This document shows positions 25,934-45,979 of a DNA stretch of 64,000 nucleotides, piece after piece. Made by a program: the position numbers and the translations under genes. The stretch covers positions 555,264-619,263 of the forward strand of contig NZ_JAGOBJ010000001.1 of assembly GCF_017983445.1 (NCBI RefSeq), given 5' to 3'. Within the stretch, counting starts at the first letter, position 1; each line of letters starts with the position of its first letter. The DNA is from Halomonas sp. GTDB lineage: Bacteria > Pseudomonadota > Gammaproteobacteria > Pseudomonadales > Halomonadaceae. The notes below the pieces were generated by a model. That model had not been told where the DNA came from. It saw only the letters and a list, made by a program, of their open reading frames with translations, and made no database searches.

Positions 25934-26021
25934 GGAGAGGTGTCCGAGTGGTCGAAGGAGCACGCCTGGAAAGTGTGTAAGTCGTAAGGCTTCGAGGGTT
26001 CGAATCCCTCCCTCTCCGCCA
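25934..26021 (+). tRNA. tRNA-Ser (GGA)
   Basis: An 88-nt class II cloverleaf with acceptor GGAGAGG/CCTCTCC, anticodon GGA in CCTGGAAAG, a long variable arm (AAGTCGTAAGGCTT), T-loop GGTTCGAATCC and encoded CCA. The last 14 bases are the attachment core of the integrated element and are repeated at 45154-45167. Confidence 0.97.
26008..26021 (+). repeat. attL core of the integrated element
   Basis: CTCCCTCTCCGCCA, the 3' end of tRNA-Ser, is repeated exactly at 45154-45167. The integrase gene starts 141 bp inside, as in tRNA-targeting P4-type elements. Confidence 0.88.
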
Positions 26022-26162: not shown

Positions 26163-27410
26163 ATGCCGAAAATCGCTAAAGAATTGAGCCCACTTGAGGT
26201 TAAGCGCCTGAGTACCCCCGGTTTTCATGCCGTGGGCGGTGTTTCTGGGCTTCACCTTCAAATCAATGATCGTGGTGGCCGCTCTTGGATACTACGCACC
26301 AAGGTAGGCAGCAAGCGCCGCGATATCGGCCTTGGTGGTGCCTCAGAAGTTACGCTAAAGGATGCCAGAGAGCGTGCCGCTGAGGTCAAGCAGCGTATTA
26401 AGGTCGAAGGTATAGACCCTGTTCTTGAGAAGAAGAGCAAGCGTGCTGCATTGATTGCTGCCCAGGCTAAGGCGGTCACTTTCGAAGACTGTGCTCGCCG
26501 CGTTATCACCAAGAAGCAAGCTGAGGCTGGCAATAGAAAACATGCCAAGCAGTGGGAGTCTACGCTTGAGCGCTACGCATACCCGGTACTTGGAAAAATA
26601 GCCGTTGGTGATATTGAGCTAGCTCATATTGTTGAGGTGTTGGAGCCGTATTGGTCTACTAAAACGGAAACCATGACCCGGGTGCGCCAGCGAATAGAGG
26701 CCGTTTTGGCCTACTCCATCACCCATGGCTACCGGGATACTGCCAATGTGGCAGTCTGGAAAGGCAACCTTGAAACGATCCTGCCAGCACCTACAAAAAT
26801 AGCGAAAGTGGCGCACCATACTGCGCTGGCCATTGATGATATGCATGGCTTTATGATCGATCTTCGTAACCGGACCGGCAACGCTGCTAGATGCCTGGAG
26901 TTTACGGTTCTAACCGCCACACGGTCAGGAGAGGCGAGGGGAGCCACTTGGGACGAGATAGACTTAGCTTCCAGGGTTTGGGTTATTCCTGCAGAGAGAA
27001 TGAAGGCAGGCCAAGAACACAGGGTGCCGCTATCTGACCAGGCTATAAAGTTGTTGGAGGCCCAGCCGAGAGATAACCGCCTAGTGTTTCCTGCACCCCG
27101 AGGAGGAAAGCTTTCAGATGCCGCCATGAGCGCCTTGCTTAAAAGGATGGGCATTAAGGCTACCGTTCACGGCTTCCGTTCTACCTTCCGCGATTGGGCT
27201 GCCGAGCGCACATCAACCCCTAATCAGATTGCCGAGATGGCGTTAGCCCACACTGTAAAAGGCGTAGAAGGTGCTTATCGCCGCGGTGATCTATTAACGA
27301 AGCGGGGGCGCCTGATGGGCCAGTGGGCCGACTTCATTGATCAAGAAGTTAATCCAAGCGTAGCGAGCATTAGAGGCCAAGATAAGATAGGGAGAACAAC
27401 TAATGGTTGA
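26163..27410 (+). CDS. int: Tyrosine-type integrase, P4 family
   Basis: The 415-residue site-specific recombinase has the N-terminal arm-binding domain of P4-type integrases (GLHLQINDRGGRSW, GLGGASEVTLKDAR) followed by the catalytic domain. The active-site residues lie in TATRSGEARGATW, HGFRSTFRDWAAE, MALAHTV and the tyrosine in GAYRRGD. I start at ATG 26163; the frame runs open upstream through the tRNA, which is not coding. It integrates the element into tRNA-Ser. The next gene overlaps its 3' end by 8 bp. Confidence 0.95.
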   Translation: MPKIAKELSPLEVKRLSTPGFHAVGGVSGLHLQINDRGGRSWILRTKVGSKRRDIGLGGASEVTLKDARERAAEVKQRIKVEGIDPVLEKKSKRAALIAAQAKAVTFEDCARRVITKKQAEAGNRKHAKQWESTLERYAYPVLGKIAVGDIELAHIVEVLEPYWSTKTETMTRVRQRIEAVLAYSITHGYRDTANVAVWKGNLETILPAPTKIAKVAHHTALAIDDMHGFMIDLRNRTGNAARCLEFTVLTATRSGEARGATWDEIDLASRVWVIPAERMKAGQEHRVPLSDQAIKLLEAQPRDNRLVFPAPRGGKLSDAAMSALLKRMGIKATVHGFRSTFRDWAAERTSTPNQIAEMALAHTVKGVEGAYRRGDLLTKRGRLMGQWADFIDQEVNPSVASIRGQDKIGRTTNG

Positions 27411-28450: not shown

Positions 28451-28481
28451 ATACCTCATGTAAACACTAAGCATGAGGTAT
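28451..28481. promoter_or_regulatory. 10-bp inverted repeat over the AlpA-like gene's ribosome binding site
   Basis: ATACCTCATG (28451-28460) and CATGAGGTAT (28472-28481) are exact reverse complements 11 bp apart. The right arm contains the only Shine-Dalgarno-like GAGG ahead of ATG 28488. It may be an autoregulatory operator or an RNA hairpin blocking translation. Confidence 0.55.
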
Positions 28482-28487
28482 CACCGC

Positions 28488-28682
28488 ATGAGTCAAGAAG
28501 CCGAATACTTAACCGCTGCCTCCTTGGCAAAGCGCTATGACGTAGGCCCAGCCACTATATGGCGCTGGTCAGCCAACCCAAAGCATCCATTCCCACAGCC
28601 AATCAAGCTAGGCCCTAACTGCACACGCTGGCGCATTGAGGATATTGAAGCGTTTGAGGCGCGCTGCAAGGAGGTGGCCTAA
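28488..28682 (+). CDS. AlpA/MerR-like DNA-binding regulator
   Basis: The 64-residue protein has a winged-helix excisionase/AlpA fold: SLAKRYDVGPATIWRWS is the helix-turn-helix and the remainder (FPQPIKLGPNCTRWRIEDIE) is the typical wing. AlpA proteins activate integrase or act as excisionase in P4-like elements. An upstream in-frame ATG at 28473 lies inside the inverted repeat; ATG 28488 is preferred. It is followed without gap by the KilA-N gene. Confidence 0.85.
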   Translation: MSQEAEYLTAASLAKRYDVGPATIWRWSANPKHPFPQPIKLGPNCTRWRIEDIEAFEARCKEVA

Positions 28683-29342
28683 ATGTCTTCTTCCAATGTC
28701 ATCCCTCTACAGTACGAAGGCCAAGCTTATAGCTTTAGCGCTGCTGGGTGGATCAATGCTACTGAAGCTGCAAAGCGCTTTGGCAAGAAGCCAAATGACT
28801 GGCTTAAGCAGGATGAAACCAAAGAGTATCTGCTTGAAATGGCAGCGGCGCTTAATTGCGATCCTGAGTCGCTTTTAAAAACTCGCCGCGGTCGATACGA
28901 CAGTGGTACTTGGCTGCATCCTAAACTGGGTGTGCGGTTTGCCCAGTGGCTTAGTACGCGCTTTGCTGTTTGGTGTGACCTCCAAATAGACCGCTTAATC
29001 CATGGCGGTACTGATGGCTGGCAACAGCTACGCGACTCAGCCGCTATAGGTTACCGCGGCATGTGTGACGCACTCCAGTTAACCCGGGAAGCCCAGGGCA
29101 AGCCAGCCGCCCGTCACCACTTCATCAATGAAGCCCGGTTGATCAACATAGCTGTCTTTGGCCAAGCCAAGGGTGTGGATCGTGACAGCCTAAGCCCTGC
29201 TGAGCTTCGCCTGCTGGCGCTGATTGAGCAGCGCGACACCTTCCTATTAGGCCGAGGCCTTGACTACCAGCAGCGTAAGCAAGAGCTGACACGCTACGCA
29301 CAGGAGCAGCTACTGCCTAAGCTGCAAGGCGGCGCCGCATGA
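28683..29342 (+). CDS. KilA-N domain protein
   Basis: The 219-residue protein has an N-terminal KilA-N domain: INATEAAKRFGKKPNDWL near residues 21-38 and GTWLHPKLGVRFAQWLS near 74-90. A helical C-terminus with LDYQQRKQELTRYAQEQL follows. KilA-N proteins bind DNA and are common in phages and satellites; their exact roles are mostly unknown. AAGGAGG seven bases upstream supports the ATG. The next gene overlaps by ATGA. Confidence 0.88.
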   Translation: MSSSNVIPLQYEGQAYSFSAAGWINATEAAKRFGKKPNDWLKQDETKEYLLEMAAALNCDPESLLKTRRGRYDSGTWLHPKLGVRFAQWLSTRFAVWCDLQIDRLIHGGTDGWQQLRDSAAIGYRGMCDALQLTREAQGKPAARHHFINEARLINIAVFGQAKGVDRDSLSPAELRLLALIEQRDTFLLGRGLDYQQRKQELTRYAQEQLLPKLQGGAA

Positions 29343-29677: not shown

Positions 29678-29861
29678 CACAAAGGCGCACCAGCGCCCCT
29701 ATCATAGCAGGCGCTTTTTTTGTGTCCGCTATGCGTTATGGCGGCTGTGCGTGGAATGCCTTCGGGCATGCCGGTTTCCTTTGTGTCCGGTCCGCCAATC
29801 CGCGTACAGTCGCCCCCATTCGTTGCTTGGCGGCAACCGGGGACGACTCCAAACACAAAGG
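29678..29861 (+). ncRNA. P4-immunity-like structured RNA leader of the replication operon
   Basis: This stretch carries two copies of TTTGTGTCCG (29719-29728 and 29780-29789) and two complementary words (CACAAAGG at 29678-29685 and ACACAAAGG at 29853-29861). In one fold CCTTTGTGT (29778-29786) pairs with 29853-29861 around two inner helices, including CCGCCAA with TTGGCGG; this covers the AAGGAG ribosome binding site of the gene at 29872. A terminator sits between the first complementary word and the first copy. Competing complementary words ahead of the replication operon resemble the seqA/seqB/seqC system of phage P4. The base pairing is seen; the function is inferred. Confidence 0.55.
29692..29721 (+). 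terminator. Terminator within the leader
   Basis: AGCGCC (29692-29697) pairs with GGCGCT (29710-29715), followed by six or seven Ts. It stands between the regulatory genes and the replication operon, so transcription into the operon should depend on reading past it. Confidence 0.8.
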
Positions 29862-30538: not shown

Positions 30539-30945
30539 ATACCCGCCAAACACACCTAACCCTGGACCAGGTCAACGCACTAATTGCCATTGGTGACAAG
30601 GTAGACAGCCTGGCAGGTGAGCTTGAAACCGATGGCGTAGCTGATAAAGCCATTGCTCACTATGCCCAAGCCTGTCACCACATATCGGAAGCCTCTAACG
30701 CGCTATTGGAAGCGATGCGCTTTTCTTCACATCCAGTCACCCAGGCCTCAAAGCGAGTGGTGTTGTCATTATGTGCCGATGATGCCTACGACCTAGCGCA
30801 CCTGCTCAAAGATGCAGCGCAAGTGCTAGAGAAAGGGCCGCGTGATCTAAAAGTTACTACTGAAGATGCTGATATTCGCATGGAGCGTGATGGCCTGATG
30901 GTTGGCACGATCAAGGTAGCTGATAAGGCAGGGGGCCATGAATAA
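30535..30945 (+). CDS. Hypothetical protein, satellite replication operon
   Basis: A 136-residue protein with helical N-terminal (LTLDQVNALIAIGDKVDSLA) and middle parts. It is not recognised. The C-terminal 25 residues form charged strands. The next gene starts on its last base, so expression is coupled to the primase gene. Confidence 0.7.
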   Translation: MNTRQTHLTLDQVNALIAIGDKVDSLAGELETDGVADKAIAHYAQACHHISEASNALLEAMRFSSHPVTQASKRVVLSLCADDAYDLAHLLKDAAQVLEKGPRDLKVTTEDADIRMERDGLMVGTIKVADKAGGHE

Positions 30946-31883
30946 TGGCCTATCAAAATAAAACGCCCAGCGGAAGCCAGGCGGAGTACAGCAGCATTGT
31001 CGAGATGCCCAGCCATCTTAGCATAGAGGTTGCCGCTGAACAGGTCGCCAGTGACCTCTATGGCGCGTCCCGCTTTTCAGGCAAAGGCAAGTGGCGTCGG
31101 TTCATCCCTGGTGGAGCCAATAGTCAGAGTGGCTATATCGGTCTGCTAGGGGATACCGCGGCGGTGGTGGGTGACTGGCGTGACTCTCAGCGCCTGGTAA
31201 TGTTGGTTGATGATGCTGACGACGATATCACGCGCACCGAGAAGCGCCAGCAAGCCCGCATGGAAGCACAGCGCCAGCGCGACCAATGGGAAGCCGAGCG
31301 TATCGCTAAACAGGCAGAGACAGCAAAGCAGGCCCGCCAATGGTGGGCGTCTGCCAAACCGGCAGATACCAGCCACCCCTATCTGGTTAAAAAGCAACTA
31401 CGGCCATACGGTCTGCGTCAGCGGGGCAATGCCCTGCTGGTACCGCTGTATGTCGATGGCGAACTGATCAATCTGGAGCGCATCTTCCCCGATGGTGCTA
31501 AACGCCCGCTGCCTGGTGGCCGGGTAAAAGGTGCTGCCAGCTTGATTGGCCGCATAGCTGGCGCCAATCGGGTACTGGTAACCGAAGGCTGGGCAACGGG
31601 CGCCGCGCTCTATGCGTCTACTGGCTGCCCAGTGGTGGTTGCCCGCAATGCCGCCAACCTTGAGCCGGTCGCCCGCCGTCTGCGCCAGCGCTTACCCGAA
31701 GACGTGTCTATCACAATCGCAGCGGATGATGACCGCTTTACCGATGGTAACCCTGGCATGGCCAAAGCGCGGATCGCAGCGCTGGCCGTCGGGGGCAAGT
31801 TGCTCACGCCTGTATTTTGCGACCGTTGTGCTTCATGCACCGACTTTGCCGACGTGGCCCTATGCCGCAAGGGGGCCGTATGA
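30945..31883 (+). CDS. Toprim-domain primase-like protein
   Basis: The 312-residue protein has the central insert region and Toprim core seen in P4 alpha-like and plasmid primases. SHPYLVKKQLRPYGLR and LLVPLYVDGELINLERIFPD precede the Toprim motif VLVTEGWATGAALYASTG, with the catalytic Glu. The DDD-type acidic motif is in ITIAADDDRF. No zinc ribbon is visible at the N-terminus, although CDRCASCTDFAD at the C-terminus could bind metal. The helicase gene overlaps its stop (ATGA), so primase and helicase functions are carried on two coupled genes, not one fusion. Confidence 0.88.
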   Translation: MAYQNKTPSGSQAEYSSIVEMPSHLSIEVAAEQVASDLYGASRFSGKGKWRRFIPGGANSQSGYIGLLGDTAAVVGDWRDSQRLVMLVDDADDDITRTEKRQQARMEAQRQRDQWEAERIAKQAETAKQARQWWASAKPADTSHPYLVKKQLRPYGLRQRGNALLVPLYVDGELINLERIFPDGAKRPLPGGRVKGAASLIGRIAGANRVLVTEGWATGAALYASTGCPVVVARNAANLEPVARRLRQRLPEDVSITIAADDDRFTDGNPGMAKARIAALAVGGKLLTPVFCDRCASCTDFADVALCRKGAV

Positions 31884-33907
31884 GCTGGAAGCCAGACGAT
31901 AACTTGAGCCTGTTTGACGCCCCGGCAGATGAGGATCAAAGCCGTCCCACTACAAATGCAGCGGGAACAGCGGGAACAGTGGGAACAAGGGGCATTAAGG
32001 ATCACAAAAACAGCAGCTTAGAAGATTCTGATAGCGTTCCCGGTAGCGGGAACAGTGTGGGAACACCGAGAACAGGCACCACCGACGCTAATGAACAGAG
32101 CAACCAGGAGTCTGCGAGCGCAGAAGAGTTAGCAGCGTTTGATGATGCGGCGCCTTTGGGCAAAGAGGTGTCGCCCGGAGAAGCTGAACCGCTAGACGGC
32201 AGCGTTAAGCGTCCCGACTTCACTAGCCATGCGAACTGGTTCCATATCGGGGACAAGCGGTGTCCTCCGGGATTGTGGTGGCACGGTATACGCACCGGAC
32301 AGAACGGCTCCACCAATGAGGATGTGTACATTGCTGACCCTATTGAAGTAATCGCCATTAGCCGTGACGAACACGGCGGTAACTTCGGGCGTCAGGTTCG
32401 CTTTATGAATAGTGAGGGCAAATGGTGCCGCCGAGTATTGCCCATGCGCTTGCTCAATGAAGGCGGGTCAGAGCTGCGCCGCGAATTACTGGATATGGGG
32501 CACACGCACGTCATCAAGCAGCGCCACCGCCTTGCTGACTACATTATGGAGAGTCGGCCAGAGGCCCGGCTGGTAGCGGCTACTACGACCGGCTGGCATG
32601 ACAACTCGCGCGCCTTTGTTCTGCCTGAGCGCACCATCGGCAATCAGGACTACTGCTTTAGCGCCGATTCTTCTCGAGCCAGCTACTTTGATGTTCGCGG
32701 CACTCTTGATGGGTGGCGCCAGCAGGTTGCCGGGCGTGCAGTTAACAACCCCATCCTAATGCTGGGTATCTGCATTGCTTTAGCCGGACCTTTGATATGG
32801 CCAGCCAAACAGCAGCCGTCTGGGGGGCTGGGCTTCAACTTGCGCGGAGGCTCCAGTAAGGGCAAAACCACCTGCTTGCAAATGGCTAGCAGCGTCTGGG
32901 GCAGTCCTCAATTCATGCGCCAGTGGTCTGGTACCGGCAATGGCATTGAAGCCTTGGCAGCGTCCCAGAACGATACCTGCATGGTGCTGGATGAGATAAG
33001 CCAGGCGAGCCCATATGAAGCGGGCAATATGGTCTATCTGGTAGCAAATGGTGTAGGCAAGCAGCGAGCGGCTAGAATCGGAGGTATTCGTGAAGCTCAG
33101 CGCTGGCGCCTGATGTTGCTATCCAGCGGCGAACGTAGCCTGGCCTCACATATGAGCGAAGCCGGTAAGAAGGCCAAGGCCGGGCAGGACGCTCGCTTGT
33201 TAGATATACCCGCCACCAGTCGCCGTCATGGGGCGTTCGATGACATCCAGGGCATGACCCCTAGTGATTTTGCTAACGCTATTAAGACGGCGACAGCGGA
33301 GCATTACGGGCATGCCGGTAGTGCCTTTATCCAGCACCTGATAAAGCAATCTGACTTACCTGCTCTCTACCGCGACACCATGGAAGATCCCGTATTTACC
33401 GGCGCTCTGGATGGCGTTTCCAGTCGTGCAGCCGGAGCCTTTGGATTGCTTGCCATGGCAGGAGAGTTGGCGACAGATGCCGGGTTAACAGGATGGGCCC
33501 CTGGTTCGTCTATCGAGGCTATTGGTACGTGCTTTCAGCTATGGCAATCCGAAAGGGGGAGTTTGCCACCGGAAGACCAGGCCATCATGGAAGGTATCGC
33601 AAACTTCATTCAGCGCCACGGTGATAGCCGATTTAGCGAGATGGGCGCTTCAAGTGGCGAGAACAAGCCCGGAGTCAGAGACCGTGCTGGCTATTGGTCA
33701 GACATGGCAGAGGGGCGTGTCTTTTACTTCCATCGTGCAGCACTGGAGGAAGCGGCCAGCGGGTATGACCCCAAGATGATTGCCAGCGTACTGGATAAGG
33801 CTGGCTGGCTCTATGAAAAGGAGTCGGGAAGATTCGCGGTCAACAAGCGCACGCCTAATGGGCTTCAACGCCTTTATGCCGTCTTGCCAAAGGAGGGTGA
33901 CCAATGA
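31880..33907 (+). CDS. DUF927-type replicative helicase
   Basis: The 675-residue protein has a low-complexity N-terminus of about 110 residues encoded by iteron-like repeats, then a DUF927 domain. The ATPase core has FNLRGGSSKGKTTCLQMA as Walker A near residue 325 and MVLDEISQAS as Walker B. KQQPSGGLGFNLRGGSSKGK is typical of the family. It probably unwinds satellite DNA for the upstream primase. The start is ATG 31880, overlapping the primase stop. The oddity is that six GTTCCC/GGGAAC sites at 31963-32064 lie in the 5' coding region, giving a Ser/Gly/Thr-rich stretch. Confidence 0.9.
   Translation: MSWKPDDNLSLFDAPADEDQSRPTTNAAGTAGTVGTRGIKDHKNSSLEDSDSVPGSGNSVGTPRTGTTDANEQSNQESASAEELAAFDDAAPLGKEVSPGEAEPLDGSVKRPDFTSHANWFHIGDKRCPPGLWWHGIRTGQNGSTNEDVYIADPIEVIAISRDEHGGNFGRQVRFMNSEGKWCRRVLPMRLLNEGGSELRRELLDMGHTHVIKQRHRLADYIMESRPEARLVAATTTGWHDNSRAFVLPERTIGNQDYCFSADSSRASYFDVRGTLDGWRQQVAGRAVNNPILMLGICIALAGPLIWPAKQQPSGGLGFNLRGGSSKGKTTCLQMASSVWGSPQFMRQWSGTGNGIEALAASQNDTCMVLDEISQASPYEAGNMVYLVANGVGKQRAARIGGIREAQRWRLMLLSSGERSLASHMSEAGKKAKAGQDARLLDIPATSRRHGAFDDIQGMTPSDFANAIKTATAEHYGHAGSAFIQHLIKQSDLPALYRDTMEDPVFTGALDGVSSRAAGAFGLLAMAGELATDAGLTGWAPGSSIEAIGTCFQLWQSERGSLPPEDQAIMEGIANFIQRHGDSRFSEMGASSGENKPGVRDRAGYWSDMAEGRVFYFHRAALEEAASGYDPKMIASVLDKAGWLYEKESGRFAVNKRTPNGLQRLYAVLPKEGDQ
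31963..32064. repeat. Iteron module 1 (six GGGAAC/GTTCCC sites)
   Basis: GGGAAC occurs at 31963, 31972 and 31981 (9-bp steps). One inverted site (GTTCCC) is at 32036, then GGGAAC at 32048 and 32059. On the minus strand this is the 2+1 inverted+3 order of modules 2 and 3, so module 1 is in opposite orientation. It is entirely inside the helicase coding sequence. Confidence 0.8.
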
Positions 33908-37323: not shown

Positions 37324-37348
37324 AACCCGCTTCCCAAGCGGGTTTTTT
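37324..37348 (+). terminator. Rho-independent terminator
   Basis: A perfect 9-bp stem, AACCCGCTT with AAGCGGGTT, around a CCC loop and followed by TTTT. Confidence 0.9.
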
Positions 37349-37364
37349 GTATGGGAGGAAAAGT

Positions 37365-37688
37365 ATGAAAGCGCTTATAACGTATCGTGAAGCCGCCGAA
37401 ATGCTCAGCGTTTCCCACTGGACCGTTCGCACCATGGTACGCCAGGGAAGGCTTAATGCCACTGGCGAGGGGAAAGGCCGGCGCGTCACCATGGGAAGTA
37501 TTTTAAGGCTTGGTGAACTGGATGCTGGAACACTTGAGATAGATGGGCACGCAGCGCCCGACGCTCAGAGCCGAGGTAAAACTGTACGTCACCACGTATA
37601 TGGCAATCCTCGCAGTACAGGGCCCAACAGGACAGCGAGCCAAGCAGAAAAGGAACTGGATGAGCTACTAAAGAAGAAGCTCAACTAG
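37365..37688 (+). CDS. Excisionase-type helix-turn-helix protein
   Basis: The 107-residue protein starts with ITYREAAEMLSVSHWTVRTM, a MerR/excisionase-family helix-turn-helix, followed by the wing GRLNATGEGKGRR. A polar tail ends in a Lys/Glu-rich helix. GGGAGG precedes ATG 37365. It faces the repeat arrays downstream and is a candidate to bind them. Confidence 0.8.
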   Translation: MKALITYREAAEMLSVSHWTVRTMVRQGRLNATGEGKGRRVTMGSILRLGELDAGTLEIDGHAAPDAQSRGKTVRHHVYGNPRSTGPNRTASQAEKELDELLKKKLN

Positions 37689-37828
37689 GCTGCGAAAGGC
37701 GCAATTTATAAGGCGCTGCCTGGGAGCGAAAAGCAACGCTTCAAAAGAGATTCAGGGAGCGTTGAGACCCCACCAAAACCCAACATGAGCATTGCGTTTG
37801 CCCGACACCTCTCTGCGCTATTCGTGCC

Positions 37829-38003
37829 GGTCTCCACGCGATGGTTTCCACTGAGGTTTCCACCAGATCGCCAGCATCCACTTGCTGGTATCCATGGCGG
37901 TATCCACCAAATGGCTAGTTAATACGGCGGTTACCACCCTCAGAGTGGTAGCCAGGTGAAAATACGAATGATGGTACGAGCGATTAGTACGAATTAGTAC
38001 GTG
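37829..38003. repeat. Direct-repeat triplets A-C of the candidate origin
   Basis: Triplet A is GGTCTCCAC 37829, GGTTTCCAC 37843, GGTTTCCAC 37855. Triplet B is AGCATCCAC 37873, GGTATCCAT 37887, GGTATCCAC 37899. Both step by 14 then 12 bp. Triplet C is AATACGAA 37961, GGTACGAG 37973, AGTACGAA 37986 (steps 12 and 13), with an extra AGTACGTG at 37996. GGTTACCAC at 37929 and an inverted GTGGTAGCC at 37945 lie between B and C. There is no gene here. Confidence 0.75.
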
Positions 38004-38282: not shown

Positions 38283-38391
38283 GTCAGGAGCGCGACCCCC
38301 TTATATGGCAACAACAGCATGTTAAGGAATGTTAAGGTTCAATCTGAAACGATGCGAAGATAATCGCACCGGCTGGAAGATAAAGGGTGAG

Positions 38392-38425
38392 TTTCACGCA
38401 GGGCTTCACGCACGATTTCCACGCA
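38392..38425. repeat. Direct-repeat triplet G
   Basis: TTTCACGCA ending at 38400, CTTCACGCA ending at 38412 and TTTCCACGCA ending at 38425 repeat the 12/13-bp steps with yet another core. Confidence 0.7.
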
Positions 38426-38515
38426 CCCTAATGCGCTGCATAGGCTCGGCTTGTTGACAAATGTCGGTGCTAAAAAAGCCGGAATCCCGGCCTTAGGCTG
38501 GCGCCAGCACGGTAT

Positions 38516-38530
38516 TACAAAAGTTTTGTA
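38516..38530. promoter_or_regulatory. Odd-length dyad TACAAAA-G-TTTTGTA
   Basis: A perfect 7-bp dyad around a single G, in the context GGTATTAC...GTAGTGCTC. The same 26-bp context recurs at 44268-44293 with paired A/G and T/C changes that keep the dyad. A one-base centre suits a protein dimer site better than an RNA hairpin. Confidence 0.55.
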
Positions 38531-38661
38531 GTGCTCACCAGCCGCATGATAAAAACACAGAAACGCTAGGTGCCTACCCCCGTAAACCCCTTAAAGCGGC
38601 AATGGGTCAAGAAGTGTATGCCTATTTTTAAGTCAGGCCTTTTTGCTGGCCGTTCGTTTCT

Positions 38662-38674
38662 CGGTTTCAAACCG
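38662..38674. promoter_or_regulatory. Dyad CGGTTT-C-AAACCG
   Basis: A 13-bp dyad around one C, about 130 bp after the 38516 dyad. The matching CGGTTT-G-AAACCG occurs at 44355-44367, about 70 bp after the second copy of the first dyad. Confidence 0.5.
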
Positions 38675-38725
38675 GAAAACCCATAGCCGCAAAACTGCGC
38701 TTATTGGTGGGTGCCTCTTTTATCT

Positions 38726-38814
38726 GTTCCCGCTTGTTCCCACTCATAAATCAGCAGTGGGAACAGAAAAACATCTTATTAATCAGCAATGTTCCCGCTG
38801 TTCCCACTGTTCCC
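38726..38814. repeat. Iteron module 3 (six GTTCCC sites, intergenic)
   Basis: GTTCCC at 38726 and 38736, inverted GGGAAC at 38759, then GTTCCC at 38791, 38800 and 38809. The steps are 10, 23, 32, 9 and 9 bp, matching module 2. A 60-codon open frame here translates to a peptide like residues 14-45 of the protein at 33904, but only because the module is shared. It is the strongest single candidate for a replication origin or control site. Confidence 0.85.
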
Positions 38815-38911
38815 GGTCAAAATAGACAGCTGCCACTTATCCATAGTAAGAATTCCCCTCTTTTAAGCTACCCGCTTATACTCCATCGGCTAACAATAAA
38901 ACCGGGGAATA

Positions 38912-39196
38912 ATGATGATTCGAGCCATCATATTGGCACTAATGCTCTGCCTGGCGGGTATGGTCAGTGCCGGGGACGCGGTGGGCGATTCGGAAACATG
39001 GGTAACCCAGGCAGGCCTAAGCGTAAGTGGAGAAGAGGCTGAATGCGATCTAGCCTTTGATGCTATGCCTGATGAGCTCGCTTTTGCTCAAGGTGGTTGT
39101 TGCCGAGTGTGTAAGAAGGGCAAGGCATGCGGTAATTCGTGTATTAACCGCGACTATACTTGCCGCCAGCCCAGAGGGTGCGCCTGTGACGGGTAA
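38912..39196 (+). CDS. Small secreted cysteine-rich protein
   Basis: The 94-residue precursor has a signal peptide (IRAIILALMLCLAGMVSAG, cleavage near residue 20) and a mature acidic segment. Its C-terminal domain carries nine cysteines (CCRVCKKGKACGNSC and YTCRQPRGCACDG). The KGKACGNSC and GCACD words belong to an uncharacterised family of small exported bacterial proteins. It has a GGGG-type ribosome binding site and is probably monocistronic. It is an unusual cargo for a satellite and might alter the surface or act on competitors; that is speculation. Confidence 0.75.
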   Translation: MMIRAIILALMLCLAGMVSAGDAVGDSETWVTQAGLSVSGEEAECDLAFDAMPDELAFAQGGCCRVCKKGKACGNSCINRDYTCRQPRGCACDG

Positions 39197-39234
39197 GGGA
39201 GTGCCAGCTGGTTAGCGATGCAATGATCGTTGCG

Positions 39235-39444
39235 TCACTTGGAGCGCTTAAAAGCCTCAACGGCTTCATTCATGCGCTCTTGCATCCACTGCTCAAGATA
39301 TGACTGCAGGTAGCCAGTACGACCGATGCTGAATCGCGCCGGTGGCGCAATCATCTTGTAATTAGCGTGCATCCGCCAGAGCGTGGTTCGATCAACGCCT
39401 AGCATTTTGGCTGCTTCTCCTATGTTCAGAATCTTATCCTGCAT
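39235..39444 (-). CDS. AlpA-like regulator
   Basis: The 69-residue protein has the helix-turn-helix NIGEAAKMLGVDRTTLWRMH followed by a wing and an acidic helix. ATG 39444 follows AAGAGG on the minus strand; the longer open frame upstream is not needed. It is transcribed away from the tail module, and it is one of four small winged-helix proteins in the element. Confidence 0.8.
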   Translation of the reverse strand: MQDKILNIGEAAKMLGVDRTTLWRMHANYKMIAPPARFSIGRTGYLQSYLEQWMQERMNEAVEAFKRSK

Positions 39445-39593
39445 GGCTGGCCTCTTTTTTGAATTATCGGAAATAGTAAGTCGCGCATTAATTATTAAGG
39501 TGTGCCGGGCGGCTATGGGTGGCATTAGAGTTAACGCTAGGCCAACACCTGCTAAGATCAAGAAACGGCTTATGGATGCCCTGGGAGGCGATT

Positions 39594-39965
39594 ATGAAAG
39601 GTTTGATTGCTGGTGCACTGGCCAGCCTTATGGCGGCTGGCGCTTGGGCTGAAATCAAAGTCATCGATACCGAGTTCCACGGCGATGCTTTTAACAGTAC
39701 GTATAATATGACTGTAGAAAATGAGTCAGACCTCCCCGTTGCTAGGCTCGAGTATCGCTCGGTATTTAAAACTCCTGGCAGGTCGGTGCCGTGGGCTGAC
39801 GAGAGCGGAGGTTTAGATATACCTGGTGGGGTTGAGCCAGGCGAAACAAGAAACCTTGAATACATTATGGCGCCGCTGGGAGTGGAGCAGGCTGGCCAAC
39901 AAGAGGTGGTGGTGGAGATTTACGACTTGGTAGGTATTGGCTTGGACGGAAAGCCAATCAGATAA
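39594..39965 (+). CDS. Secreted hypothetical protein
   Basis: The 123-residue precursor has a signal peptide (KGLIAGALASLMAAGAWA, cleavage near residue 19) and a mature beta-rich domain with regularly spaced hydrophobic strands, resembling an immunoglobulin-like or FxLYD-type extracellular domain. GGGAGG precedes ATG 39594. I do not recognise a named family. With 38912 it is the second exported cargo protein. Confidence 0.7.
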   Translation: MKGLIAGALASLMAAGAWAEIKVIDTEFHGDAFNSTYNMTVENESDLPVARLEYRSVFKTPGRSVPWADESGGLDIPGGVEPGETRNLEYIMAPLGVEQAGQQEVVVEIYDLVGIGLDGKPIR

Positions 39966-39985
39966 CTGCTTCCATCTAATTAAGA

Positions 39986-40005
39986 GCCCGCCAGCTATGG
40001 CGGGC
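39986..40005 (-). terminator. Hairpin downstream of the tail-chaperone-like gene
   Basis: GCCCGCCA (39986-39993) pairs with TGGCGGGC (39998-40005) around a GCTA loop. On the minus strand it is followed by TCTTAATT, a weak T-tract. It separates the convergent genes at 39594 and 40036. Confidence 0.6.
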
Positions 40006-40035
40006 CCATCGTTGTAATGCAACAAAACGCAACAG

Positions 40036-40437
40036 CTATTCTTGCTCAGCAGCCGCGCTTTTGCTGTCTGGAGTATCACGATCAAAGCGCCCAAGGTTAT
40101 TGGCCTGCGCCAGCACAAACTCCATGAGCATTGGGTTTTGTTTGAGTGCCAGCGTTCCCAGCTCAGGCGTATAGGCAGTTGTCTCTCCATTCACTCCGAC
40201 GTTATCCCAGTCTTTAAGCAGCCCCAGCGCTATGGCTTCGCAATGGAGCGTTAAGCTTTGGTCGGCTGTCAGCACATCCCCATATTTACGCTGATACTTC
40301 TTTTCTACCGCCATAAGGTGGTCAAGGTATTCGTGGTTCCCCTTATAGGCCACCTTCAGATGGCTATCTTCCTCTATGCCTACCCACTTTCCTGCTGTGA
40401 ATTTCTCGCTTTCATACCGATCAATGCGAAACGCCAT
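40036..40437 (-). CDS. Tail assembly chaperone-like protein
   Basis: This 133-residue acidic protein resembles phage tail assembly chaperones, with LGLLKDWDNVGVNGETTAY followed by Pro-rich TPELGTLALKQNPMLMEF and a helical tail. Chaperones of this kind coat the tape measure before tail polymerisation. Here it is divergent from the tape-measure operon across an AT-rich promoter region, whereas in normal phages it lies just upstream on the same strand. The assignment rests on pattern and context and is moderate. Confidence 0.6.
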   Translation of the reverse strand: MAFRIDRYESEKFTAGKWVGIEEDSHLKVAYKGNHEYLDHLMAVEKKYQRKYGDVLTADQSLTLHCEAIALGLLKDWDNVGVNGETTAYTPELGTLALKQNPMLMEFVLAQANNLGRFDRDTPDSKSAAAEQE

Positions 40438-40535
40438 AAGTCTCTCCTGTGATTAATTACACCCTGATATAAAACCAGTATATAAGCTATTATATTGCGC
40501 ATATGAACAATTATGTGAAATTTAATTGCGAGTAA

Positions 40536-40721
40536 ATGCAAATGAGCAGAGTAAGAGGAAAGAGAGGGCTTAACCGGCGCCCAGGGAAAGGCGTTATCGA
40601 TCAATGCTGGTTGACGCTGCGCAAGGCTGTAGATAACGGTGACGTAACCGCCGCCGCAAAGCTGATCGAGCTGGATCATATGTTAAGCGCCAGCCAAGGG
40701 CGCCAGGAGGCACAGGCATGA
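40536..40721 (+). CDS. Hypothetical small basic protein, tail operon
   Basis: A 61-residue basic helical protein (KGVIDQCWLTLRKAVDNGDV in the middle). ATG 40536 and ATG 40542 are both possible. Its stop overlaps the next start (ATGA). It is not recognised; it occupies the position of a small tail gene ahead of the tape measure. Confidence 0.6.
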   Translation: MQMSRVRGKRGLNRRPGKGVIDQCWLTLRKAVDNGDVTAAAKLIELDHMLSASQGRQEAQA

Positions 40722-41005
40722 TTGGAGCTGACACTAATGCGATGGTGATCCAGCTTGAGTGGATGCAGTCCACCGGCAGCGCAGACTTTGATGAGATGCG
40801 TGAAGCAACAGCCTCTATGATCAAGGCGTTGGCTAACCTGCAGGTGAAAATGGGGGGCATGACTCACGCAGATCGGCGCGAACTCCTGAAGACAGTCGAT
40901 AAGCTTTGCCCGAAGAAGCAGCTGAGCGAAGGCGAACGCCGCCACCTGAAGCGCGATTTCAAGCGTAATGGTCCTGCCAGTAGGCTGAAGGGTGGCCGGT
41001 CATGA
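40718..41005 (+). CDS. Hypothetical protein, tail operon
   Basis: A 95-residue helical protein with a very basic C-terminus (RRHLKRDFKRNGPASRLKGG), coupled by ATGA overlaps on both sides. It is not recognised. In lambda-like phages this slot holds the second tail chaperone; no slippery heptamer linking it to its neighbour is evident. Confidence 0.6.
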   Translation: MIGADTNAMVIQLEWMQSTGSADFDEMREATASMIKALANLQVKMGGMTHADRRELLKTVDKLCPKKQLSEGERRHLKRDFKRNGPASRLKGGRS

Positions 41006-43920
41006 CAACAAGCAGCTCACGCCTTGAAATCATTATCGATAGCAGTAAGGCCGAGAAAAGCCTGAGCGCTTTGGAGGGTAAGCTTTCGCAAGTCGAAGGA
41101 CGCGGGGAGGCCACTGCCGCCACTATGGGCCGCGTTAACCGGGTGATTGGCCTGCTGGCTGGCGCCTTCTCAATCAGGCAGATCAGCACCTATGCAGACA
41201 CGTGGAGCGACTTGAATAGTCGTGTAGCCAACGCTACAGGCAGTACTGATACCGCGGCGGACACCCTGCAGCGCTTATCCCAGACTGCACGTTCAACCTA
41301 TAGCAGCTTGAACGCGACCGCTGAAACCTTCTTGGCCAATGCCAACACGATGCGAGAGCTTGGTGTATCCACTGAGCGCCAGCTTGATCTGTCTGATGCT
41401 CTGAACAACTCAATGGTGATTAGCTCTATGCGTGGGCAAGACGCCGCCATTGTTATGGATGCCCTATCCCGGTCCTTTTCGCTTGGTGAGCTAAGAGGCG
41501 ATGCGCTGAACACCGTCTTGATGCGTGGTGATCGACTCACTCAGGCATTGGCTGATGGTTTGGGTGTGGCTACCTCTGAGCTTCGTGAAATGGGTGGATC
41601 AGGGACGCTAACCACTGAGCGAGTAATCGCGGCACTAACGAGCCAGATGGAGGTACTGCGTAAAGAGGCCGACGCCATGCCTGCAACGCTGGCCGATGGC
41701 TTTACGTTGATTGGCAATAGCGCGTTAGAGCTGGTGGGCTCTATCGATCAGGCTTTCGGTACCAGTGAAGGTATCGCCGGGATGATGGTGAATGCGGCCG
41801 ATGCAGTGCGGGACAACGTTGGCCCTATTACGGATCAAATGGTTTCGCTTGATTGGGCGCTCCGTGGTGCTACTGGTGCGGTTATTGCCTTAACGGGCGC
41901 AAAGTACGGCCTGGCTACCGCTACCTGGGCAGCTACTACCGCGCAGAGTGCTTTTCTTAAGGTGATACGTCGCAACCCTATCATCCTAGCGGCTACCGGC
42001 GTGACCGCTTTGGCTGGCGCCTACTATGGAGCCCGCGATGCCACCATGGAGTTTGGCGATACACAGGCGAGTGTTGCGGACTGGACGCAGGGCGTGTGGG
42101 TAGGTACTCAGCGAACGGTAAGTGATGCGGCCGGCGGCATGCTTAGCGATACCGAAAGTGCGTTAGGTCGCGCCAGCCAGCTAATGACCAATAGTGCGAC
42201 GCTAGCAGGCGCCGTGTGGTCGGCTATGTATAGTGACCTAATAAGCGATGCGCGGGATTCTGCCAATGGCATGATTGCTTATATGGACACGTTTGGCAGC
42301 TCTGTCGGCCTTGTTGCTGGCGCTACTCGAGATGCCTTCTCTAATGCGTTTAGAGATACGCTGGGTCTTAGCAGAGCTTTTATGATGGATCTGTTGAACA
42401 TCCTGTCTGGTGACAGATCCTTTAGTTCCTTTAACCAACTTCGCGATCAGCTTGCGGACAATTTCACAGCTCCTTTTAAGGAAGCTATTGAGCAAGTAGG
42501 CCAGATTAGCCAAGAAAATCTAAACACCGATTACCTAGGCAACATAGCTGGTGGCTTGTCTGATCGCTTAGGCGTACTGCGTAACAATATTTCAGATGCT
42601 GCCTTTGAAGCTCGCATGGCTCGCGGTGAGTTTGGCCTGGTGGCCGAAGGATTTAGCGAAGGTACCAAGGCTGCAGATGGATTAGGCACTGGCATGCTTG
42701 GACTGGGCGATATTATCCAGGATGTGTCTGGATCATCCAAAAAGGCGACGGAAGATGCTAGGCGCGAGGCCGAACAGTTTGCCAACAGCCTCCAATCCCT
42801 AACCGACCGCCTATTTCCGCTTGAAGCCGCCCAGCGCAGTTATCGCGACGATCAAGAGCTTTTAACGCTCGCATGGGCCAAAGGCGAGATGGGCGTCATG
42901 CGTTACCTAGAAGCGCTTAACCAGTTAGAGCAGGCCCAGCTAAGCACGAAAACAGCAAGCGCTGTTTACGGTGGCGGCGGTGGCTTTGGCGCCGAGATTG
43001 GGAGTCGTGGTGGCTTAGGAGCGCCTACTGATCCCCTGGCTGGCATTGCGGGCAATCAAGACCAAGGCTACTGGGATCGGTGGCTGGAGTCGGCTGAAAG
43101 CGCCTTTACTGACTTTGACCAGCTGTCCGCCAACACGGCGGAGAACTTCCAGCGCGGCTTCGGAAATGCGTTTGAGTCGATGATCTTTGATAGCGAGAGC
43201 GCGGGCGATGCGGCGCGGAACTTGTTTGAGGGGATGGGGCGTACCGCAATTAACACGCTTGGGCAAATGGCTGGACAGTGGTTGGCTTTGCAAGCTGTGC
43301 AACTGGCCATTGGTAAAACGTCGGAGGCGGCTGCAATAGGCTCGGCTGTTACTACCGGTACAGCCATTGCCACAGCCTATGCTCCTGCGGCTGCCGCTGC
43401 CTCACTTGCATCATTTGGCACTAACTCTGTTCCTGCCATGGCGGGCATGTCAGCCACGTACGGGCTCAGCAGCATGCTAGCAATGACTGGCTTCGCAGAC
43501 GGCGGGTATACCGGCTCAGGCGGCAAGTATGACCCGGCGGGCATCGTCCACGCAGGGGAATTTGTCGTGCGAAAGGAGATGGTCGAGCGCCCTGGTGTGC
43601 TTGGAATGCTTGAGGGGCTAAATCGTGGCTATGCCAATGGTGGGTATGTGGGCGCAGCGCCCCTTTCATCTATCTCACCAGCCCCAAGCTATGGCCAAAC
43701 ACTAAACAGCGATCGGCTAGATGCTTACCATGCGAGTGCCAGAGTCGGACGCGATCAGCCACCAGTCGTTATTCACAAGGCTGGTAACACCTACCATATC
43801 CAAGGCAAACCTGACAGGCAGACCATCAAGATGATCGAGCAAGCCGAGGAACGGGCATATCAGCGCGTTCTTAGGGATGCTCGAAGAAATCTAGACATCA
43901 GACAAGCGCTGGGCGTTTAA
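41002..43920 (+). CDS. Phage tail length tape-measure protein
   Basis: The 972-residue protein has the tape-measure N-terminal domain (ISTYADTWSDLNSRVANATG and LSQTARSTYSSLNATAETFL). Long helical and Gly/Ala-rich central parts include membrane-like segments. The C-terminal region resembles lambda H (WLESAESAFTDFDQLSANTA, then DGGYTGSGGKYDPAGIVHAG and EFVVRKEMVERPG). It appears complete. Tape measures set tail length by their own length. No major tail, tube or baseplate genes are nearby, so it would have to work with a helper phage's tail. It is an exceptional gene for a satellite. Confidence 0.92.
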   Translation: MTTSSSRLEIIIDSSKAEKSLSALEGKLSQVEGRGEATAATMGRVNRVIGLLAGAFSIRQISTYADTWSDLNSRVANATGSTDTAADTLQRLSQTARSTYSSLNATAETFLANANTMRELGVSTERQLDLSDALNNSMVISSMRGQDAAIVMDALSRSFSLGELRGDALNTVLMRGDRLTQALADGLGVATSELREMGGSGTLTTERVIAALTSQMEVLRKEADAMPATLADGFTLIGNSALELVGSIDQAFGTSEGIAGMMVNAADAVRDNVGPITDQMVSLDWALRGATGAVIALTGAKYGLATATWAATTAQSAFLKVIRRNPIILAATGVTALAGAYYGARDATMEFGDTQASVADWTQGVWVGTQRTVSDAAGGMLSDTESALGRASQLMTNSATLAGAVWSAMYSDLISDARDSANGMIAYMDTFGSSVGLVAGATRDAFSNAFRDTLGLSRAFMMDLLNILSGDRSFSSFNQLRDQLADNFTAPFKEAIEQVGQISQENLNTDYLGNIAGGLSDRLGVLRNNISDAAFEARMARGEFGLVAEGFSEGTKAADGLGTGMLGLGDIIQDVSGSSKKATEDARREAEQFANSLQSLTDRLFPLEAAQRSYRDDQELLTLAWAKGEMGVMRYLEALNQLEQAQLSTKTASAVYGGGGGFGAEIGSRGGLGAPTDPLAGIAGNQDQGYWDRWLESAESAFTDFDQLSANTAENFQRGFGNAFESMIFDSESAGDAARNLFEGMGRTAINTLGQMAGQWLALQAVQLAIGKTSEAAAIGSAVTTGTAIATAYAPAAAAASLASFGTNSVPAMAGMSATYGLSSMLAMTGFADGGYTGSGGKYDPAGIVHAGEFVVRKEMVERPGVLGMLEGLNRGYANGGYVGAAPLSSISPAPSYGQTLNSDRLDAYHASARVGRDQPPVVIHKAGNTYHIQGKPDRQTIKMIEQAEERAYQRVLRDARRNLDIRQALGV

Positions 43921-43947
43921 GCCTGCATACAGGGAGATAACAGAATT

Positions 43948-43974
43948 AAGCCTTGGCTGACGCCGGGGCTTTTT
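43948..43974 (+). terminator. Terminator after the tape-measure operon
   Basis: AAGCCTTGGC pairs with GCCGGGGCTT (two G-T pairs) around TGAC, followed by TTT. It lies 28 bp after the tape-measure stop. Confidence 0.7.
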
Positions 43975-44741
43975 CCATTTGAAATGGAGGCAGTGAAATA
44001 CCCCTGATTCCGGGGATTTCCTCAGACTGAGGAGAAGGTGGCCTGTCCCAAATTATATATAACAGCTGTAATAGATACTTTGAAATCAGCTTGGCAAAAC
44101 CGCGTTTCAAACGCGGAAGCCTGCGGGAGTTCCATCTTTTCAAGAGCTTGTGTGGTCATGCTGCCAAGGTAGATGCGTCCAGAGTTGAACGTATATAAAT
44201 GCGGGATTTTCTCCCAATTAAATACCCCCAACCGGGGGGATTATTCGGAGTAATACCCCTGGCGCGGGTATTACGAAAGTTTCGTAGTACTCTCCTTGCG
44301 CACCAATATCGGAGCAACTGGCTTTTACCCAAGACTGGGGAAAGCGGGGTTTTACGGTTTGAAACCGGAAAAAGGTGGGGATTCCCACCTTTTAATTGTG
44401 ATCCTGAGTCACTTCAAGCCGCGGTCAACCTGACCACCCCTAGGCGGTCAAATTGACCGTCCAGGCGATGTCCGATAACTGGATAAGCTAATGGGCGCGA
44501 TTTTGCGCTGATTGTCCAGACGCTAACAGAGTCTCTTAAAGATACTCTGTCGCAACAGGGAAGCCACATGCGCGTGGTGATAACAGGGAAGGGCACAAGG
44601 TAGGGAAAAGTAGGGATTTAGGCGTATGCCATGGAATGACCCTTAAACCCCATGAGATGCTAGTAAATGCTAAGGTCGGAAGCCTCGTTATAATCGACAC
44701 AGCTATATTCGGTGCCTGCAATCTTAAAGAGATGCTTGGGG
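43975..44741. other. Gene-free right-hand region rich in dyads
   Basis: This region of about 770 bp has no convincing gene. It holds AAATACCCC at 43996 and 44220 and TAATACCCC at 44251, with nearby GGGG arms. Three odd-length dyads lie at 44100-44116 (CCGCGTTT-C-AAACGCGG), 44272-44286 and 44355-44367. The second copy of TTAAACCCCATGAGA is at 44643-44657. Satellite cos/pac or replication sites would be expected in such a place. Confidence 0.55.
44272..44286. promoter_or_regulatory. Odd-length dyad TACGAAA-G-TTTCGTA
   Basis: Second copy of the 38516 site. Relative to it, A to G and T to C at mirror positions preserve perfect symmetry, and the flanks GGTATTAC and GTAGTACTC are shared. Confidence 0.55.
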
Positions 44742-44930
44742 CTAGTTTCCAAATACCTGCTTATCCTCCCAAGCTTTGAGATCACTTTCACGCCAGCGGG
44801 ATTCAGCGCCGTGGCCACCCTGAATAACGGGCCTGGGAAAGCCTTTCGTCATACGCCACCGCAGCAGAGTGTTTCGGCTACGGCCGTAGCGTTTGCAAAG
44901 CTCACTAGTCGATACGTAACGTTCTTGCAT
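44742..44930 (-). CDS. AlpA/MerR-like regulator near attR
   Basis: A 62-residue winged-helix protein: VSTSELCKRYGRSRNTLLRW is the helix-turn-helix and FPRPVIQGGHGAESRW the wing. It is encoded on the minus strand about 220 bp inside the right attachment site, a position suiting an excisionase. No strong ribosome binding site is seen. Confidence 0.7.
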   Translation of the reverse strand: MQERYVSTSELCKRYGRSRNTLLRWRMTKGFPRPVIQGGHGAESRWRESDLKAWEDKQVFGN

Positions 44931-45153
44931 GATGGCTGCCTAAACTAAAAAGCTGCTATGAAAAGGTAGATGGCTTCCTAGCAACAGGGTAGTAGAAAGG
45001 CTCGGCAAAATGTCAAAGGGTAAGGGCTTAACTTAAGAGCGCTGCATCCAGTATCATGAGATAGCATCCAATAATATTATTTATGTTGGTTTTATTGTTG
45101 GGTAATGGATAATTAGTAATGTAAGGTGATGATAAATATATAATAGTGGCGGT

Positions 45154-45167
45154 CTCCCTCTCCGCCA
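45154..45167 (+). repeat. attR core of the element
   Basis: An exact copy of the 14-bp tRNA-Ser 3' end at 26008-26021. It is followed by the terminator that belongs to the original tRNA-Ser gene. Confidence 0.88.
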
Positions 45168-45210: not shown

Positions 45211-45979
45211 TGTTTGGGATTTGGAAGGGCATTTTTTCAATTCGGGGTTTTACATACTTTTGTCTCACTTACGTCAATAAGGAAGTGACATAAGATCATG
45301 GTTTCGATAATCTGGTGTTAATCATAATGAGCCTTGATTAGTGCAAGTAACAACTTTAGGTCTAATTGAGGGAGCCTAGGTATGATAAAAAGGTCTTGGT
45401 AATCGCGATACGTATTGCCTTTTGTGCATCTGCAATTAGTATCATGCTATATTAGCGTTGTGTTGCAGAGAAGAAAAGTTTTCATTTTCTAATGTTGAGG
45501 CCTCTGCAAAATATCGTTTCGCTCCCACTACTAGAGATAGTTCTATTTTTTTCAAAGGGGCAACTTCTTTTCTATTTTTGATGAGGTTACAACTGCTTAA
45601 TTCGGTTAAATTTATTACCTAAATATGTCGACGTCGATTTTTTAATAAACGCTGCACCGATTAAGGCGACGTAAAACATCGGGCTAGTGTGCCAAATATG
45701 AAATTAAGCGTTGAGCGTTATCAGGTAAGTCGTTGGTGATGTTAGACTCTACCAGCCCGGCAAAGATAGTCATCTTAAGGGTTGATACGCTCATCTGAAC
45801 GTGGTCAGTTAATAGTTCCGCCAATAGCGTACTGCAATCAAAAAGGTGGTCTATATAGAGCGTCAGCTACTTGATCTATGCTCGGTTTGAGGTTTGTTAG
45901 AGATACAAGAAAATATAAATGTGGCAAATTTAGTACGCAAGCTAGATGATTTCTGCTCCATACAAGAGGTTGTTCAAGC
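45211..45979. other. AT-rich region left of the ABC-3C operon
   Basis: About 770 bp, clearly AT-rich, without a confident gene. On the minus strand 45684-45869 translates as a 60-residue frame containing STLLAELLTDHVQMSVSTLK and then NDLPDNAQRLISYLAH before a stop. It begins after a stop and has no good start, so it looks like a gene remnant of unknown family. The promoter of the operon at 45980 should lie in the last 150 bp. Confidence 0.45.

Follow-up and report, generated by a model that had tools for sequence, protein, structure and literature searches.

What use would a phage satellite have for a full-length tail tape measure? The question is raised by an island of Halomonas sp. (RefSeq assembly GCF_017983445.1, contig NZ_JAGOBJ010000001.1) that lies in a stretch of 64,000 nucleotides analysed here (positions 555,264 to 619,263 of the forward strand; "the window", whose own numbering is used throughout). 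The island is an integrated element of satellite type, in which the genes for a tape measure protein (TMP) and a tail assembly chaperone (TAC) are the only recognised virion genes. We propose, at a probability of about 0.68, that it is a helper-dependent satellite that contributes its own TMP, its own TAC and two small partner proteins, and that it would depend on an infecting siphophage for all remaining virion parts, so producing a chimeric tail. The satellite-type anatomy of the element, the conservation of its tail cassette and the exchange of the far end of its TMP among close relatives are established below.

The insert (26022-45167, 19,146 bp) lies within a tRNA-Ser gene, the end of which is repeated as the 14-bp sequence CTCCCTCTCCGCCA at 26008-26021 and 45154-45167. 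We take these boundaries because 12 of the 19 tRNA-Ser loci compared in relatives (L081-L099) align to the right flank from exactly the repeat onward, presenting the empty site; at L081, L084, L087 and L089 the full 16-base tRNA end is continuous with the window's right flank. The original prediction of a 19-kb tRNA-integrated element is thus confirmed, as is that of its own replication genes, a Toprim primase (PF13362) and a DUF927 helicase (PF06048). The element had also been called P4-like, which holds in part. Traits in common with P4 are the tyrosine integrase with a tRNA target, AlpA-like regulators (PHROG excisionase/AlpA-type and Pfam HTH_17 matches; the Pfam AlpA family itself gave none), a primase and helicase of its own, and the C4 antisense RNA, which is the immunity RNA of P4. 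The C4 RNA was found too in four related islands introduced below (G011, G010, G025 and G013) and not in G197, by an Rfam RF01695 search of the window and these five islands. On the other side, the single alpha protein of P4 unites primase and helicase, which are separate here; a TMP and a TAC are present; and no Psu, Sid or Delta family was found among the window's open reading frames (ORFs; 23 scanned with Pfam, 31 with PHROG), although divergent analogues are possible. Because there is neither a Psu, Sid or Delta match nor a fused alpha protein, we describe the element as P4-like in regulation only, and do not claim P4 membership.

The tail cassette is largely as it had been read from the bare sequence (Table 1). 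The TMP gene is intact, with 972 residues matching TMP_3, TIGR02675 and many PHROG tape-measure families; the chaperone-like gene on the opposite strand matches phrog_313 and phrog_8233, with no Pfam or NCBIfam match; and ATGA overlaps join the gene for a 61-residue protein to that for a 95-residue protein, and the latter to the TMP gene. The two small proteins had no PHROG or NCBIfam match, and no Pfam match above cut-off. One predicted detail needs correction, namely that both TMP ends are conserved: the N-terminal domain is clear, but the C-terminal end exists in several exchangeable types, of which this TMP has one. The absence of any other structural gene is borne out. Among 31 window ORFs scanned with PHROGs there was no baseplate hub, and no head or tail family other than TMP and TAC, bar a weak terminase-small match (E=9.5e-4) of the helix-turn-helix (HTH) gene at 37347, which we rejected since its excisionase match is better (2.5e-8). 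Capsid, portal and terminase genes were absent from the element in these scans and in a search with 20 structural proteins (taken from one G035 and two G049 prophages and identified by eye from their gene order), which matched nothing in it.

The divergent region between the TAC and TMP operons holds a 35-bp motif that is probably a promoter or operator. It differs from the reference by at most one substitution across four sister satellites and had no further match at up to 9 substitutions in the loci compared; its conservation contrasts with the flanking genes, whose synonymous sites approach saturation between the more distant sisters. A sigma-70-like hexamer pair lies at 40464-40493, the count of such sites in the region being not above that in shuffles.

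Related islands were sought with the TMP in 82 genomes of the genus (matches in 17) and with the TAC in 275 genomes of the family (matches in 13). This gave seven satellite-type islands bearing a TMP: that of the window, those of G011 (Halomonas sp. JB37), G010 (H. campaniensis SK03, the island being divided between two contigs), G025 and G013 in the same genus, and those of G197 and G128 in another. The remaining matches that could be classified were prophage-like. Gene lists were inspected for G049 (two prophages), G035, G061, G010, G025, G197, G128 and G013, and the TMP and next gene alone for G003, G005, G024, G048, G051, G055, G060, G064, G110 and G224; the count of seven leaves out matches in G012, G017 and G122, where further satellites may occur. 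A G049 region initially read as a satellite turned out to be a prophage.

The inverted TAC, the 61-residue gene and the TMP, a gene set that the original prediction had proposed to seek in other Halomonas genomes, are common to the window, G011, G010 and G025. TAC identity to the window is 98% in G011, 74% in G025 and 70% in G010; that of the 61-residue protein is 100%, 80% and 78%, with 47% in G013 and a weak match in G197 (E=0.0034). Homologues of the 95-residue protein occur, among 18,321 ORFs of the loci examined, only in the satellites of G011, G010, G128 and G197, and not in G025; an order-wide search hit 2 of 390 genomes, the window's own and a marginal match at 5.9e-4. The helicases of G011, G010 and G025 are 88-92% identical to that of the window, and their integrases only 27%. 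The island of G013 occupies the same tRNA-Ser gene as that of the window; its integrase is 99% identical (323 residues covered), and its replication genes are different. Its TMP (1011 aa), in the corresponding slot, is of another class, with a partial match to that of the window (38% over 740-876). The G013 island has in addition a 164-aa ORF (L038:3396-3890) that combines a GNPAGRPKG-type N-terminus with a further TMP C-terminal domain, which shares 45% identity with the corresponding domain of G013's own TMP; it may be a spare docking module, a decoy or a recombination relic.

The islands of G197 and G128 contain genes for a scaffold, a major capsid protein, a 95-residue-type protein and a TMP, the TAC gene following the TMP on the same strand. 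Profile scans, made on G197 for scaffold (phrog_206, 4.1e-28), major capsid (PF20036, 1.3e-98) and TAC, support this, and no portal or terminase was seen with the capsid and scaffold genes (L056:11984-13542 and L058:2897-3835). The two species share an identical capsid protein, which has 27% identity to its counterpart in the G035 prophage. It was the only match of the 20 prophage structural proteins in the seven islands; in the four prophage loci used as controls, these proteins matched 3 to 7 times per locus. Portal, terminase and tube genes of the local prophages have no relative in any of the seven. A complete tail and capsid cluster in close relatives would, according to the original prediction, make the element a prophage remnant; the six relatives have no such cluster, with the qualification that G197 and G128 do have scaffold and major capsid genes near the TMP and TAC.

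Strong purifying selection acts on the TAC and on the constant TMP part. The ratio of nonsynonymous to synonymous substitution rates (dN/dS, by NG86, dS being saturated in two pairs) is 0.08 for TMP residues 1-650 between the window and G011, 0.13 and 0.09 for the TAC against G011 and G025, and 0.08-0.12 for the 61-residue gene.

The rest of the TMP behaves differently. Between the window and G011, identity is 92-100% over residues 1-650, then 62-80%, and 24-34% in most of the last 120. Between G010 and G025 it is 62% over residues 1-50 and 88-100% over 51-350, and thereafter 12-50%, within elements that outside the TMP are 74-91% identical in DNA where alignable. Between G197 and G128 it is 74-98% over residues 1-400 and then mostly 16-34%, with one block of 98% at 551-600; DNA identity there is 96.7% over the 5,895 bp up to the exchange and 99.6% over the 2,032 bp from the TMP end on. 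By sequence comparison, then, the C-terminal part is replaced or strongly diverged inside an otherwise kept element in all three close satellite pairs. From residue 601 the window TMP is related to a G049 prophage TMP (60-88% identity per 50-residue block), with 21 of the 22 final residues identical. The repeated swapping of the far end among related satellites suggests that they adapt to the tails of different helper phages. A tail of the satellite's own length is conceivable, but the comparison points more to the matching of helper tails, because it is the C-terminal part that gets exchanged, with length changing along with it. Satellite TMPs range from 734 (G010) to 1373 residues (G025); a rule that they are always shorter than phage TMPs fits 734 versus 753 and 972 versus 1005, and fails for 1373.

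What the far end might fit was examined in phages, asking whether the nearest neighbour by a given TMP segment shares the family of the gene downstream of the TMP. The sample of 96 loci comprised 80 viral contigs (the best 80 among the matches listed for the G010 TMP query), 15 Halomonadaceae genome stretches and the viral contig L004. Setting aside nine loci with no downstream gene and four with no usable TMP ORF left 83, which redundancy removal brought to 44 and the dropping of singleton downstream-gene families to 39. The last 60 TMP residues predicted the downstream family in 36 of the 39 (shuffled mean 12.0, maximum 23), the last 100 residues in 33, the first 150 in 19 and a middle 100 in 20. 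Stricter redundancy removal gave 28/31 for the last 60 and 27/31 for the last 30 residues, against 7-12/31 for six other windows; at the strictest setting the values were 17/20, 16/20 and 6-10/20. Published findings fit this association: for phage 80alpha, Tal at the tip is reported to be contacted by the C-terminus of the TMP, whose N-terminus lies at the neck (PMC11661146), and for TP901-1 the N-terminal 154 and C-terminal 60 residues are described as required (PMC5099701).

Three of the downstream families are named from their scanned members, a minority: distal tail protein (phrog_1302), virion structural protein (phrog_384) and minor tail protein (phrog_14). The window TMP end groups with phrog_1302 tips (class 1), and those of G011, G010, G013, G197 and, weakly, G128 are nearest to phrog_384 tips; by that measure the window TMP and its near-twin from Halomonas sp. 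JB37 would suit different tail-tip classes. Among named phages the window C-terminus had no match, and that of JB37 matched two Synechococcus phages. DUF2460 was considered as a tail-tip family and dropped (1 of 82 genomes, none of the phages examined). Two distinct prophages in the G049 genome (L035; L029-L030) resemble each other in their tail-tip modules and differ in the head genes and TMPs that precede them.

We propose the following course. Infection by the helper would lift the control by C4 RNA and AlpA-like regulators, and the divergently arranged operons of TAC and TMP would be turned on. Carrying the satellite's own TAC, the satellite TMP would use its ~60 C-terminal residues to dock on the tail-tip initiator of the helper (the distal tail protein and its neighbours), outcompeting the helper TMP there. 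Helper tube protein would then polymerise along it into a chimeric tail whose length is set by the satellite TMP, predicted at ~146 nm at 1.5 A per residue. Satellite DNA would be packaged in helper heads and exit in chimeric-tailed virions. The TMP N-terminal part would be the satellite's constant part, and the C-terminal part would be swapped between satellites to suit helper tail tips. Helper dependence, docking, replacement of the helper TMP, tail length and regulation are all parts of this proposal. We go one step further more tentatively, and would put it at a little short of even odds: the TMP may be an exchangeable helper adaptor, whose constant N-terminal part works with its own chaperone and small partner, and whose C-terminal ruler and ~60-residue tail-tip plug are replaced when the satellite shifts to a helper with a different tail tip.

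Several observations weigh against these proposals. Our analysis identified no helper: in the host genome there is no second TMP_3 match, nor any match to Phage_portal or Terminase_6N. The class-1 distal tail gene is in none of the five same-genus satellite hosts; the G049-type gene is in 3 of the 82 genus genomes (G005, G035 and G049), none of them a satellite host. The helper must therefore come from outside, or from families beyond those searched; the satellite helicase had no match in viral contigs. Constraint is weaker in some parts, as indicated by higher dN/dS for the whole TMP between the window and G011 (0.24), the G010/G025 TMP (0.35) and the 95-residue gene against G011 (0.42). In the phage test, the sample consists of the 80 best matches listed for one satellite TMP plus 16 other loci, the C-terminus of G025 fits no class, and two of the five phages nearest to G011 (and likewise one of those nearest to G197) belong to a different small cluster; linkage could account for part of the association, because the last TMP codons adjoin the downstream gene. 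Neither a search of PDB sequences with the TAC nor a comparison of its predicted model (pLDDT 74) with solved folds matched any solved TAC. Finally, a TMP-like ORF was found in none of 19 further islands that encode a related DUF927 helicase (ORFs of at least 380 aa, up to 20 kb). We therefore rejected the idea that every DUF927 island has the tail cassette as a core trait; it belongs to some satellites and not to the whole family.

A possible objection is that the element is a deletion remnant of an ordinary siphoprophage that kept TMP and TAC by chance. The TMP is indeed of phage ancestry, as its similarity to the G049 prophage TMP indicates, and related islands mostly lack one. This explanation is already disfavoured, and we give it very little chance: the ORFs are intact and under purifying selection, no other prophage structural gene is found in the element with the 20-protein query, and the small gene adjoining the TMP was not found in phages of the loci examined. 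Moreover the inverted TAC, 61-residue gene and TMP occur jointly in the window, G011, G010 and G025, the last three having an integrase that shares only 27% identity with the window's, and the corresponding place in the G013 island is taken by a TMP of a different class.

The other two alternatives accept the satellite and question what its TMP is for. It might, with the TAC, poison tail assembly of a helper or competitor instead of building a tail. Interference with tail assembly is a known satellite or prophage defence, as described for Tai (PMC11364771) and Rta of PLE11; a TMP bearing the helper's docking end could titrate tip complexes, and the orphan C-terminal domain of G013 (164 aa) could be just such a decoy. 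We nevertheless think this unlikely, since a full-length TMP with a ruler of variable length (734-1373 aa) exceeds the needs of a decoy, and full-length TMPs of PLE satellites are reported in virions. Or the TMP might serve mainly in DNA ejection, as pore or pilot, for example extending host range, with the C-terminal exchange tracking recipient cells and not helpers; a part of the TMP in genome ejection is described (PMC11661146; PMC5099701). This we consider improbable, since the element carries a TAC as well, which acts in assembly, and in phages the TMP C-terminal type follows the downstream tail gene. A satellite TMP that builds a chimeric tail is the reading we retain. Its helpers are probably siphophages. 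The prophages of G049 and G035 have related TMPs and TACs, surrounded by genes of portal, capsid, tube and tip type; head and tube genes were identified by eye, and in one prophage the tip gene by profile.

Table 1. Features of the element and its borders (window coordinates)
Feature	Position	Strand	Evidence
tRNA-Ser(GGA), integration target; last 14 bases (26008-26021) = left repeat	25934..26021	+	ARAGORN
Tyrosine integrase, alternative starts possible	26163..27410	+	phrog_1 3.4e-42; Pfam PF22022/PF00589/PF13356; 99% in G013, same tRNA
AlpA-like regulator/excisionase	28473..28682	+	phrog_4745 1.7e-10, phrog_1553 5.1e-9, phrog_66 1.6e-8; no Pfam match
KilA-N antirepressor-like protein	28683..29342	+	PF04383 3.7e-18
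C4 antisense RNA	29734..29820	+	Rfam RF01695, 80.9 bits, E=8.2e-15
Toprim primase	30945..31883	+	PF13362 8.5e-8; phrog_2249 9.8e-51
DUF927 helicase	31817..33907	+	PF06048 4.5e-76; phrog_1139 2.5e-68
HTH_17 excisionase-like protein	37347..37688	+	PF12728 6.2e-7; phrog_2907 2.5e-8
Iteron-like non-coding block, repeats of GGTWTCCA	37810..37954	+	nhmmer E 4e-40 to 1.3e-29
HTH regulator adjoining tail cassette	39235..39561	-	phrog_66 2.9e-10; PF12728 1.1e-5, slightly below cut-off
Tail assembly chaperone (TAC)	40036..40437	-	phrog_313 7.8e-17, phrog_8233 5.2e-9
35-bp conserved motif, TAC/TMP divergent intergenic region; probable promoter/operator	40464..40498	.	
61-aa protein, satellite gene	40536..40721	+	homologues in satellites
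95-aa protein immediately 5' of TMP	40718..41005	+	homologues in satellites
Tape measure protein (TMP), 972 aa, intact	41002..43920	+	Pfam TMP_3 E=1.2e-44; PHROG tape measures down to 8.1e-76; TIGR02675 9.1e-12
Final 60 TMP codons: putative module for docking at the tail tip, class 1 (phrog_1302-type distal tail protein)	43738..43917	+	
Terminator-like hairpin 3' of TMP	43948..43971	+	number of such sites not clearly above shuffles
AlpA-like HTH gene close to right end	44742..44930	-	PF12728 5.5e-8; phrog_1553 1.1e-10
Right repeat (attR)	45154..45167	.	repeat + empty-site comparison

Outside the cassette, the iteron-like block is kept in all seven TMP-bearing satellites, even those with other replication genes, as found with an nhmmer model built from the same seven; in the 19 TMP-less islands there was a single match at E<0.01, a weak one (2.8e-4, L245). 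It may be an origin or packaging site. It is the first block of the iteron-like repeats in the gene-free stretch 37810-38290. Short DNA common to the element and 11 prophage-type regions lies within the TMP and the KilA gene; the same comparison gave a 24-bp stretch (44391-44414) matching inside a phage KilA-like region and one 35-bp match (26024-26058), and identified no helper cos site. In three satellites isrK-like RNAs adjoin the C4 RNA (L054:5458-5544, L244:4183-4269, L113:12382-12461), with no such call in the window. Immediately beyond the right repeat is a Lamassu-type defence operon (45980-49584; LmuA 4.7e-76, LmuC 4.3e-18, and LmuB divided between two overlapping frames, 47652-48590 and 48535-49584). 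It is contained in ~6.6 kb of DNA (45224-51866) that the window has in addition to L087 (G005), from the attR flank to 51867.

The original prediction knew of no characterised satellite that redirects tail assembly, which is now out of date. The phage-inducible chromosomal island-like elements (PLEs) of Vibrio cholerae were described in 2026 as the first satellites known to build chimeric tails: they encode a TAC and a TMP, some also a baseplate hub; virions contain the PLE11 TMP in place of the ICP1 one, with tails ~10 nm shorter; and deletion of the PLE TMP is reported to cut transduction by 96-99.9% (PMC12987554). Putative tmp genes are noted there in PLE-like elements and in capsid-forming phage-inducible chromosomal islands (cf-PICIs; PMC12987554, Extended Data Fig. 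10 legend). That a satellite makes tails through its own TMP is thus a principle already known from PLE. The two systems have in common a satellite-encoded TMP and TAC, with the remaining tail borrowed by PLE and, as we propose, by the window element. They differ in several respects. The PLE helper ICP1 is contractile-tailed, whereas the phages related to the window element are siphophage-type prophages; some PLEs have a baseplate hub, for which no gene was found in our scans of the window element; and here the TAC is inverted and the TMP C-terminal part exchanged between close elements. Solved structures searched by profile with TAC homologues showed no sequence relation to PLE, the PLE1 TAC 5IR0 being absent from the matches listed. 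The window lineage, with its C4 antisense RNA and other replication genes, is distinct from PLE.

Like cf-PICIs, of which some have a putative tmp, the relatives in G197 and G128 have structural genes of their own, scaffold and capsid. cf-PICIs also have their own portal and terminase genes; in G197 and G128 neither of these was seen, and the window element lacks capsid, portal and terminase alike. The AH14b satellite of Pseudomonas resembles ours in its P4-like integrase, AlpA and primase, and it too has something tail-related, a single gene, but that gene is reported as a lambda I homologue and not a TMP (PMC4936722). Judged by titles and abstract openings among the matches listed, we found no description of this lineage, or of satellite TMP end exchange, in the open-licence PMC literature, and a TMP design with an exchanged C-terminal part appears to be new.

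The lineage suggests that tail takeover by satellites arose more than once, and that siphophages are also targeted. The exchange in three close pairs offers a testable handle on what decides which helpers a satellite can use, and the phage comparison narrows the part of the TMP that would dock at the tail tip to ~60 residues, a prediction useful for tail assembly generally. If the TMP is indeed an exchangeable adaptor, helper range would be encoded in the 60 C-terminal residues of a single satellite protein, and control of tail length by the satellite would be a side effect.

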